64,000 nt of DNA from Rhodobacter sp. SGA-6-6. GTDB lineage: Bacteria > Pseudomonadota > Alphaproteobacteria > Rhodobacterales > Rhodobacteraceae. The notes below the pieces were generated by a model that had not been told where the DNA came from, ran no database searches, and was given only the letters and a program-made list of their open reading frames with translations. Numbering within the stretch: position 1 is the first letter of the stretch; every line of letters begins with the position of its first letter. A program made the position numbers and the translations under genes. Of this stretch, positions 4,292 through 54,788 are shown piece by piece. The stretch covers positions 434,001-498,000 of the forward strand of contig NZ_JAAKGP010000001.1 in the NCBI RefSeq assembly GCF_011043545.1, given 5' to 3'.

Positions 4292-5095
4292 ATGGACATG
4301 AACGCCATGCAAACCCCCGTCATCGACGCCGCCGCCCTGAAGCCCCGCATCGCGGCCTCCGGCGTGCAGGTCTACTACGGCACCAACCATGCGCTGAAGG
4401 ACGTGTCGGTCGACATCCTCGACCGCACCACCACCGCCTTCATCGGCCCCTCGGGCTGCGGCAAGTCCACCTTCCTGCGCTGCCTGAACCGGATGAACGA
4501 CACCGTGGCCAGCGCCCGGGTCGAAGGGAAGATCCTGCTGGACGGGCAGGACATCTACGACAAGCGGGTGGACCCGGTGCAGTTGCGCGCGCGCATCGGC
4601 ATGGTGTTCCAGAAGCCCAATCCCTTCCCGAAGTCGATCTACGACAACGTGGCCTATGGCCCGCGCATCCACGGGCTGGCGCGGACCCGCGCCGATCTGG
4701 ACGAGATCGTGGAAACCTCGCTGCGCCGCGCCGCGCTGTGGAACGAGGTGAAGGACCGCCTGCAAGCCCCCGGCACCGGCCTGTCGGGCGGCCAGCAGCA
4801 GCGGCTGTGCATCGCCCGCGCGGTGGCGACCGGGCCGGAGGTGCTGCTGATGGACGAGCCCTGCTCGGCGCTGGACCCGATCGCCACCGCGCAGGTGGAG
4901 GCGCTGATCGACGAGCTGCGCGAGCGGTATTCGGTGGTGATCGTCACCCATTCGATGCAGCAGGCCGCCCGCGTCAGCCAGAAGACCGCCTTCTTCCACC
5001 TCGGCAACCTGGTCGAATACGGCGACACCCAGCAGATCTTCACCAACCCGCAGGACCCGCGCACCGAAAGCTACATCACCGGGCGCATCGGGTAA
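4292..5095 (+). CDS. pstB: Phosphate ABC transporter ATP-binding protein
   Basis: 267 aa ATPase. Walker [10 protein letters not shown] is at residues 52-60, the signature L-S-G-G-Q-Q-Q-R at about 165, and Walker [12 protein letters not shown] just after, all as in PstB. It energises PstCA on the cytoplasmic face and, with PhoU, relays phosphate status to the Pho two-component system. Two ATGs lie close together (4292 and 4298); the first, after ACAGGCA, is used here but the second is equally possible. Only 14 bases separate it from pstA. Confidence 0.94.
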
Positions 5096-34038: not shown

Positions 34039-34141
34039 GGCTCTGTCCCCATTTCTTGTTCTGGCAACGGGGATGCGGCGTGGACGCGGCGGGAAAACCT
34101 GCCGGAGCCACGACGCCGCGCCCGCCGCACGGTTTCGTCTC

Positions 34142-34313
34142 GGTGTCCTGGCAGGTCTCCTGGCTTGCGGGTCTCGGCTTCGCCGGCCTTCCCGGGGTGT
34201 CCCGCCCCAGTGGCATTCCGGTTTCGCTCGCCGCTTACAGTTGCGGGGGCAGCGCCGGCATCGCACCGGCTTCCCTCTTCACCCCCGAGTCGCCCCGGGG
34301 GAACCATGACACC
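34142..34313 (-). promoter_or_regulatory. Cobalamin (B12) riboswitch upstream of nrdHIEF
   Basis: On the minus strand the aptamer opens with GGTGTC (34313-34308) and closes with the pairing GACACC (34147-34142), forming P1. Between them lie the conserved pieces AGCCGGTGCGATGCCGGC, CAACTGTAAGCGG and the B12-box GCCACTG (34214-34208), in the canonical order. About 100 further bases form the expression platform before nrdH. A TTGACA at 34346-34341 is a possible -35 element; no good -10 is seen. Confidence 0.92.
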
Positions 34314-34365
34314 ACCATTGGTGGGCTTTGCGCCCGGGTTTGTCAATATCTTGTGGCGGCCAATC

Positions 34366-52820: not shown

Positions 52821-53855
52821 TCAGCGGCGGATGGTGTCGCCCAGATCCAGCGTCGGGGTCAGCTCGATGACCTCGCCGCCGATCACCCCGCCGGGCCGCT
52901 TGCCGGCGATGATTTCGGCCGATTTCTGGCCGATCTCCAGCCGGCAGGCATCCATCGTCGCCAGCTTGCGCGGCAGGCCGTCCAGCAGTTCCATACCATT
53001 GAAGCCAGCCAAACCGATCTTCCCCGGCACGTCCAGCCCCTGGTCCAGGCACCACAGCAGCCCGCCGGCGCCGATCATGTCGTTGGAATAATACAGGAAA
53101 TCCACGTCCGGCGTGCGTTGCAGCAGCGCCTCGGTCATTGCGCGGCCCTGCAGCAGCGACGATCCGCCGGCGTAGTATTCGCGGTCCACCAGCGTCAGCC
53201 CGGCCTTGGCCAGCGCCTCCTCGAACCCCTCCAGCCGCTTCTTCGCGCGGGTGTCCTGCTCCGGCATGTGGGTGCCGAGGAAGGCGATGCGGCGGTAGCC
53301 GGCGGCGATGATCGCCTCGGCCATCTGGCGACCGGCGCGGCGGTGCGAGATGCCCACGGCGGAATCCACCGGGGTGCCGTCGATGTCCATGATCTCGACG
53401 ATGGGGATTCCTGCCTGCGCCAGCATGGCGCGCGCGGCCTCGGAATGCTCCACCCCCGCCAGGATCAGGCCCGATGGCCGCCAGGACAGCATCTCGTAGA
53501 TCACCTGCTCCTCGCGGTCGTGCAGGTAGTTCGACACGCCGACCACGGGCTGAAGCCCGGTGTCCTCAAGCACTTCCGAGATGCCGGTCATCACCTCGGG
53601 GAAGACCATGTTGGACAGCGAGGGGATGATCACCCCCACCAGGTTCACCCGCTGCGAGGCCAGCGCCCCGGCGATCTTGTTCGGCACATAGCCAAGGCTG
53701 CGGGCCGCCTCCAGCACCCGTTCCCGCGTCGCGCCCGACACGTCGCCGCGGTTGCGCAGCACCCGGCTGACAGTCATTTCGCTGACGCCGGAGGCTTCGG
53801 ACACGTCCCGAAGGGTCAGGGTGCGGCGCGGGTCTGGAGTGGGCGGCTTCGACAA
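52821..53855 (-). CDS. LacI-family transcriptional regulator
   Basis: 344 aa from a TTG at 53855. N-terminal LacI helix-turn-helix L-T-L-R-D-V-S-E-A-S-G-V-S-E-M-T-V-S-R-V-L-R-N with the hinge helix A-G-A-L-A-S-Q-R, then a periplasmic-binding-like sugar domain with G-V-I-I-P-S-L-S-N. The group is closest to GntR (gluconate)-type LacI proteins. An ATG at 53927 in frame would add 24 unusual residues and run into the operator, so TTG is preferred, though not proven. An operator-like dyad lies at 53933-53946. Confidence 0.87.
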   Translation of the reverse strand: MSKPPTPDPRRTLTLRDVSEASGVSEMTVSRVLRNRGDVSGATRERVLEAARSLGYVPNKIAGALASQRVNLVGVIIPSLSNMVFPEVMTGISEVLEDTGLQPVVGVSNYLHDREEQVIYEMLSWRPSGLILAGVEHSEAARAMLAQAGIPIVEIMDIDGTPVDSAVGISHRRAGRQMAEAIIAAGYRRIAFLGTHMPEQDTRAKKRLEGFEEALAKAGLTLVDREYYAGGSSLLQGRAMTEALLQRTPDVDFLYYSNDMIGAGGLLWCLDQGLDVPGKIGLAGFNGMELLDGLPRKLATMDACRLEIGQKSAEIIAGKRPGGVIGGEVIELTPTLDLGDTIRR

Positions 53856-53906
53856 TCTCTGGCGTCCGGCAAGGGGCTTTTTCCTAGTTAGCCCCAAAGC
53901 GGCCCC

Positions 53907-53935
53907 TTGTCCAAGGACCATTTCCATGGTAATGA
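53907..53935 (+). promoter_or_regulatory. Candidate sigma-70 promoter facing right, overlapping a LacI-type operator
   Basis: TTGTCC (53907-53912), a 17-base spacer, then TAATGA (53930-53935). It points away from the LacI-family gene towards a region without any protein gene but with a strong terminator 70 bases on. The operator covers its -10 and start region, the layout of simple repression. Confidence 0.5.
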
Positions 53936-53946
53936 TAGCGCTAACA
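53933..53946. promoter_or_regulatory. LacI-family operator-like dyad
   Basis: TGATAGCGCTAACA is a 7+7 dyad around a central CG with one mismatch, the typical LacI/GalR/GntR operator build. It lies between the LacI-family gene and the rightward promoter, so the regulator may control both its own gene and the orphan transcript. Confidence 0.6.
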
Positions 53947-54047
53947 GCGACAAGCTGCCGATATCCGTTGCGTCCTGCAAGCTCTCGAACCAGGACGCAA
54001 GGGTCCCAAGGGGGAGTGGTGGGCCAAGTTCACTCCCCCTTATCTTT
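53942..54047 (+). ncRNA. Candidate small RNA between LacI-type operator and terminator
   Basis: A transcript begun at the promoter above would start near 53942 and stop at the terminator at 54008-54047, about 105 nt. It contains two independent hairpins: TTGCGTCCTG/CAGGACGCAA (53968-54000) and the terminator stem. No open frame with a ribosome site fits it and no known RNA family is recognised. The alternative is an attenuated leader for a gene that has been lost. Confidence 0.4.
54008..54047 (+). terminator. Rho-independent terminator with no upstream protein gene on its strand
   Basis: Perfect 11-bp stem AAGGGGGAGTG / CACTCCCCCTT, a 12-nt loop, then ATCTTTT. The nearest plus-strand gene, mtaB, ends 1.2 kb upstream, so this terminator serves another transcript. 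Confidence 0.75.
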
Positions 54048-54108
54048 TCCCCGACACGCCGAAGACCTGGTTGCCATGCCCGCCGTCATTGTGCATTGAA
54101 GGAACGCG

Positions 54109-54184
54109 GGCCCCGTAGCTCAACGGATAGAGCGTCCCCCTCCTAAGGGGAAGGTTGCAGGTTCAAGTCCTGCCGGGGTCGCCA
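54109..54184 (+). tRNA. tRNA-Arg (anticodon CCT)
   Basis: 5' GGCCCCGTAGCTCAACGG, anticodon loop CTCCTAA giving CCT, T-arm GGTTCAAGTCC, acceptor CGGGGTC, discriminator G and encoded CCA. All acceptor pairs form with one G-U. It reads AGG codons, rare in this GC-rich, CGN-preferring genome. Confidence 0.97.
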
Positions 54185-54203: not shown

Positions 54204-54788
54204 ATGCGGGCGGCGAAGCTTCAGGATTTTCTCGATCAGTCGGCGCAGGCGCTGCGGGCCGCGCGGGTTCCGTCGGAGCGGGCGGCGCGGGCCTGCGAGC
54301 GGGCGATCGCGCTGTGGCAGGGGGCGGAGGGGACCCCGGGCACGGCGGCGGCCGACCGGCTGCCGGTCTGCCAGTGGCTCGATCCGGCGCTGGAGATCGC
54401 CGCGCAGGGACCGCGGGCGGGGCTGGCGCGGGCGTTCGCGGCCATAGAGCCGGGGCTGGTCTGGCGCCGGCGGGCCTCGGCCAATCCCTCCGATGCCGCG
54501 TTCTGGAACGGCCATGCCAATGCGATGATCCTCGGCCCCGGGGGGCTGGAGGACCGCAAGGACATCTGGATCGGCGCCACCGTGATGGCTCCCGGCACCA
54601 CCTATGCCGACCATGACCACCCGCCCGAGGAGGTCTATCTGTCGCTGGCCCCGGGCGAGTGGTGGAATGCCGAGATGGACTGGACCGACCCCGGCCCCGA
54701 AGGCGCGATCTACAACCCGCCGGGCATCCGCCACCGGATGCGCGCCGGCGACGGGCCGTTCCTGGCGCTGTGGTATCTGCCGGTCTGA
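54204..54788 (+). CDS. Cupin protein of the DMSP-lyase (DddQ/DddL-like) family
   Basis: 194 aa. The C-terminal cupin carries Y134, H137-x-H139, E143, Y145 and H177; the spacing Y145 to H177 (32) equals that of the metal-binding Tyr and His in DddQ. The helical N-terminal half with W-L-D-P-A-L and W-x-N-G-H-A-N-A is also as in this family. Members cleave dimethylsulfoniopropionate to DMS and acrylate, but many relatives are untested and another small methylated substrate is possible. The start follows GGAGGGG. It stands alone between tRNA-Arg and the convergent gyrB. Confidence 0.75.
   Translation: MRAAKLQDFLDQSAQALRAARVPSERAARACERAIALWQGAEGTPGTAAADRLPVCQWLDPALEIAAQGPRAGLARAFAAIEPGLVWRRRASANPSDAAFWNGHANAMILGPGGLEDRKDIWIGATVMAPGTTYADHDHPPEEVYLSLAPGEWWNAEMDWTDPGPEGAIYNPPGIRHRMRAGDGPFLALWYLPV

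Follow-up and report, generated by a model that had tools for sequence, protein, structure and literature searches.

In the window, i.e. the whole stretch of 64,000 nucleotides that was analysed, a gene of the LacI family (cceR/gapR; 52821..53855, minus strand) and a tRNA-Arg(CCU) gene (54109..54181, plus strand; Rfam tRNA match) flank a candidate small RNA (sRNA) of about 104 nt, encoded on the plus strand with predicted ends at 53943..54046. The tRNA gene merely adjoins the sRNA unit and does not belong to it; between it and gyrB lies the gene of a cupin protein (54204-54788, plus strand; Pfam DMSP_lyase, PF16867), which is common to only some relatives. An ordinary cobalamin riboswitch with a strong Rfam match is located at 34133-34323 on the minus strand. 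In the related locus L139, a group I intron (4588-4783, minus strand; RF00028, 50.1 bits at a gathering score of 50) interrupts the tRNA-Arg(CCU) gene adjacent to cceR, and a similar intron sequence was recognized by eye at the matching place of locus L140.

The sRNA promoter TTGTCC-17-TAATGA (53907..53935, plus strand) was found by direct reading where the initial annotation had placed it, with the -35 element at 53907-53912, the -10 element at 53930-53935 and a spacer of 17 nt. The LacI-type dyad described as overlapping this promoter, TGATAGCGCTAACA, indeed lies on the -10 region and the start of the sRNA (53933..53946). The RNA comprises a short 5' hairpin, the hairpin SL2 and a terminator. 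SL2 (53965..54003, plus strand), the further hairpin that had been noticed between promoter and terminator, was recovered by an inverted-repeat search with arms of 13 nt (53965-53977/53991-54003) and 92 % complementarity; its loop, GCAAGCUCUC, is the predicted seed for pairing with pckA. The terminator hairpin (54008..54048, plus strand) has the loop GGUGGGCCAA and the 11-bp stem that had been announced, a perfect inverted repeat (54008-54018/54031-54041), followed by a T-rich tail with an imperfect T-run (ATCTTTT). Folded alone, positions 53942-54047 reached -46.8 kcal/mol (z = -3.84), and none of 200 shuffled sequences was equally stable. Neither the promoter nor the terminator was picked up by a simple consensus scan of the window, so the evidence from the single sequence is not decisive and the case was made comparatively.

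Conservation and covariation of the RNA

By DNA search, the stretch was recovered from closely related genomes and, apart from the tRNA, also from others. The covariance search in relatives that had been suggested together with the annotation was performed with a model built from twelve sequences, and it revealed a family in which both hairpins and the operator are conserved. The model matched 43 of 296 Rhodobacteraceae genomes (one genome per genus), the weakest of these matches being possibly false; outside the family, a class-wide sample yielded only three weak matches, none with cceR alongside. Plasmid-borne relatives of the stretch were looked for, and none were found. Rfam 15 gave no match at gathering score for the sRNA in the window or in the loci of seven relatives. 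Upstream of cceR in locus L143, in an AT-rich genome, an apparently decayed copy of sRNA and operator was seen that the covariance model misses.

In an alignment of 64 homologues, which was fitted to the covariance model and therefore biases covariation counts towards the structure, 17 of 20 base pairs showed double-sided changes (mean of shuffled alignments 11.0). Cells of double change numbered 120 (39.4 after shuffling), and the covariation score was 0.318 (0.165 after shuffling); neither the cell count nor the score was reached by any of 500 shuffles. Sliding the pairing partners abolished the signal. The terminator stem was paired in 98.9 % of the cells. The most conserved part of the RNA is the terminator-loop motif GGGCCAA, present in all 64 homologues and mostly unpaired, while the SL2 loop GCAAGCUCUC was present in 51 of them and about 80 % unpaired.

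The initial annotation had described a product of about 105 nt without a credible reading frame, and had named a conserved small ORF as the finding that would speak against an RNA. Two ORFs of 79 and 115 codons cross the region mechanically and might be taken as a sign that it codes for a small protein, but both start outside the RNA and have no family match. A closed ORF of at least 8 codons was present in just 15 of the 64 homologues and absent from the copy in the window, and no frame was conserved; conservation is located in the loops and paired stems. The small-protein reading was rejected, as no ORF is conserved among the homologues, and its probability is negligible.

Alternatively, the RNA might not be free but serve as a leader or attenuator of one of the next genes, tRNA-Arg(CCU) or the cupin gene: in 40 of the 46 named loci with the RNA, the tRNA stands behind it on the same strand. 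However, cceR equally has the tRNA next to it in 17 of the 34 loci that lack the RNA, and in five loci the RNA is present with no tRNA within 700 nt. A strong terminator separates the two, and conservation resides in the loops, not in any alternative antiterminator. Since RNA and tRNA each occur without the other, the tRNA-leader reading was rejected, and a role as leader is very unlikely. By these comparative data, the predicted sRNA very probably represents a real RNA family of the Rhodobacteraceae. The accessible literature contained no description of it and no paper that connects an sRNA with CceR or, in alphaproteobacteria, with pckA; the sRNA may nevertheless stand unnamed in a published list, such as those of the sRNA surveys in R. 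capsulatus and Paracoccus.

The divergent regulator and its putative operators

The start codon of cceR is placed at a TTG at 53855 on the basis of conserved N-termini; the longest ORF begins at 53927. The product matches the Pfam domains LacI and Peripla_BP, for DNA binding and sugar binding. An orthologue is present in 257 of the 296 family genomes. Of the family loci with the RNA, 29 were inspected, and each of them has cceR back to back with it. The back-to-back arrangement of the initial annotation was thus borne out; the idea of a dedicated local sugar repressor had to be abandoned, since the protein is, judged by its domains, the family-wide orthology and the comparison of its operator targets with a published list, the orthologue of CceR/GapR, a global regulator of central carbon metabolism. 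GapR (RSP_1663) and CceR are taken here to be the same protein.

In the genome of origin, the operator motif (at most one mismatch) occurs at only seven places: at the sRNA and before gap, pfkB, tal (and priA), scrK, edd and zwf, genes that were named by reading the translated sequences. A regulon of like kind, including zwf, edd, gap, tal and scrK, has been published for GapR, RSP_1663 (PMC4052901). CceR is reported to sense gluconate-6-phosphate (PMC5507952), and deletion of cceR in Paracoccus decreased PckA and increased the glycolytic and Entner-Doudoroff enzymes (PMC11323563).

For a comparison of operators, 80 named cceR loci were used, 46 with and 34 without the RNA. Upstream of cceR, a site agreeing with TGTTAGCGCTAACA at 12 or more of the 14 positions was located in 44 of the 46 loci with the RNA, but in only 3 of the 34 loci without it. 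Conservation, covariation and this co-occurrence of RNA and operator speak strongly for the original proposal, in which a small RNA is controlled by a LacI-family repressor whose gene lies back to back with it. The predicted control by CceR is very probable.

A weaker upstream box (GTTAGCCCC in the window, 53886..53898; GTTAGCGCC in relatives) keeps a constant spacing of 46 nt to operator 1, the dyad TGATAGCGCTAACA, in all 11 genomes in which the box was found. It is kept in some loci lacking the sRNA, which fits an autoregulation of cceR, and it is probably the autoregulatory operator of this gene. One may extend autoregulation to the whole arrangement, with operator and promoter serving cceR only and the hairpins being an incidental terminator. 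A CceR-type motif upstream of gapR has been explained as autoregulation in five genomes (PMC4052901), and the survival of the second box where the RNA is absent would agree with this. Against it stand the covariation in SL2 and the conserved loops as well as the rarity of operator 1 in loci lacking the RNA, which render a purely autoregulatory function highly improbable.

The -35 element of the sRNA sits within the near-palindrome CTTGTCCAAG. On the other strand, this sequence would give cceR a -35 element, and it is therefore perhaps shared by both promoters. CTTGnnCAAG enclosed the -35 element of the sRNA in 39 of the 46 loci with the RNA and occurred in 4 of the 34 without; in 36 cases its distance to the operator was 26-27 nt.

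pckA as predicted target

The gene pckA was picked from the biology of CceR before its leader sequence was seen, and the pckA leaders of relatives were read because CceR activates pckA. In the genome of origin, the pckA start (contig C33, 7700-7714) reads UCGGGAGCUUGCAGG-AUG and contains the ribosome-binding site. The SL2 loop with its flank, 5'-CCUGCAAGCUCUCGA, pairs with this ribosome-binding site over 15 bp, including a single G-U pair. At -32.5 kcal/mol, this duplex is stronger than any formed with 8,480 background segments taken from the two strands of the window, of which the best reached -30.5. SL2 carries what characterizes a trans-acting sRNA, a conserved unpaired seed complementary to a ribosome-binding site encoded elsewhere. 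Scans of the own genome for exact complements of both loops (GAGAGCTTGC, TTGGCCCAC) and scans near gene starts did not turn up a target; a search for exact complements passes over the pckA site on account of its G-U pair. The word TTGGCCCAC occurs 5 times in the whole genome G000, its reversed control about 50 times, which suggests that the genome avoids GGCC-containing words.

The pckA leaders were surveyed across 80 genomes. Of the 42 genomes with the sRNA, 26 had GAGCTTGC in this leader, compared to none of the 37 without the sRNA (Fisher p = 5e-10, a value that ignores shared ancestry). Among the genomes with the sRNA, the pckA motif was present in 16 of 19 that have the exact seed and in 10 of the 23 that lack this seed (p = 0.01, again ignoring shared ancestry); some lacked both SL2 seed and pckA motif. 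The SL2 loop of the window pairs better with leaders from genomes with the sRNA (median -23.0) than with those from genomes without (median -16.4), and in 9 of 17 genomes with the sRNA that were tested the duplex of loop and leader was better than 200 of 200 shuffles. Presence of the sRNA changes about four times on a PckA tree of 32 genomes, so few transitions that an independent-pairs test cannot reach significance, and about ten times on the CceR tree. Three genomes without the sRNA have GGAGCTTGG at the pckA start, so the pckA sequence was perhaps in place first and the motif may predate the RNA. Taken together, pckA is a probable direct target of the sRNA, as predicted from complementarity and co-occurrence.

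In some lineages, such as Rhodobacter capsulatus (L183) and Thioclava, the RNA is retained without the SL2 seed, hence further targets or a role of the terminator loop are likely. One could go further and regard the RNA as a CceR-controlled sRNA with a main target other than pckA, its terminator loop GGUGGGCCAA acting on other mRNAs, a protein or an RNA. The higher conservation of GGGCCAA in comparison to the SL2 seed points in this direction, as do other candidate target starts: GGAGCTTGC stands just before ATG at two places in genome G000 (C65:79697-79711, L416; C12:254236-254248, L413), and the iolD-like and sulfotransferase-like genes concerned, classified by reading the protein, are possible secondary targets. 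On the other side, the seed pairs with pckA over 15 bp at the ribosome-binding site, more strongly than with any background segment, and the pckA motif is absent from all 37 genomes without the sRNA. A main target other than pckA is therefore rather unlikely, and silencing of pckA by SL2 is the preferred reading.

UUGGCCC, the complement of the terminator loop, was present in the pckA leader of 18 of 42 genomes with the sRNA and of none of 37 without. As 31 % of the background segments paired equally strongly, the pairing of the terminator loop with the leader lacks energetic support and was kept out of the main claim.

Proposed circuit and known systems

From the computed RNA family and its structure, its linkage to operator and cceR, the CceR-type regulon and the complementarity to pckA, we infer transcription of the RNA, binding of CceR, a response to 6-phosphogluconate in this species and repression of pckA. 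A trans-acting sRNA that is repressed by CceR, induced by sugar and silences pckA is a fairly likely interpretation of the locus. At low concentrations of 6-phosphogluconate, CceR would bind to the operator on the -10 region of the sRNA. Sugars entering the Entner-Doudoroff pathway would raise 6-phosphogluconate, CceR would leave the DNA and the RNA would be made. The SL2 loop would then pair with the ribosome-binding site of pckA and block translation of PEP carboxykinase. At the same time pckA would be deprived of its activation by CceR, so that both effects would form a coherent feed-forward loop against futile cycling.

The proposed circuit would add a post-transcriptional arm to the main carbon switch of the Rhodobacteraceae, including Rhodobacter and Paracoccus, and would offer a testable account of the quick shut-off of gluconeogenesis by sugar, in which RNA, operator, inducer and target site are all defined.

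More tentatively, both loops may grip the pckA leader, SL2 on the ribosome-binding site and GGGCCAA on UUGGCCC about 60 nt upstream. In much of the family, the RNA would then switch between gluconeogenesis and sugar use, triggered by 6-phosphogluconate, and cceR and the sRNA would have one palindromic -35 element in common. If this doubtful extension holds, the terminator hairpin would also be a target-recognition element.

The proposed circuit has a parallel in enterobacteria, where Spot 42 and SgrS respond to sugar and back up a carbon regulator of transcription, their regulators being CRP and SgrR. They differ from the sRNA described here in regulator, RNA and target, and no Rfam match connects them with it. 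The CceR/GapR regulon of the Rhodobacteraceae offers the same regulator and operator type and a CceR-dependent pckA; in the accessible parts of these publications, no sRNA is mentioned and the site near gapR is explained as autoregulation (PMC4052901, PMC5507952, PMC11323563).

The initial annotation had judged an sRNA under a sugar-type repressor to be an unusual circuit. Unusual it is, but not without precedent, since CcpA, a LacI-family protein, represses RsaI and RosA. RsaI of S. aureus is CcpA-repressed and blocks translation through pairing with Shine-Dalgarno sequences (PMC9266662). It is a stand-alone sRNA under a LacI-family global carbon regulator, and both this arrangement and the Shine-Dalgarno pairing are predicted here as well. 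In contrast, RsaI is on when glucose is scarce, whereas the sRNA of the window is predicted to be on during sugar use; regulator, targets and phylum are different, and RsaI is not known to lie divergent to its regulator gene, as the sRNA of the window does. RosA of B. subtilis, also repressed by CcpA (PMC8216469), resembles the predicted sRNA in being stand-alone, in the LacI-family operator at its 5' end and in the tie to central carbon metabolism, but it acts as a sponge for RoxS and FsrA, while an mRNA target is predicted here. The likeness to both RNAs is one of outline, drawn from their descriptions. The proposed circuit, if true, would give the alphaproteobacteria a counterpart of the CcpA-controlled sRNAs known from Firmicutes, but one of opposite sign.
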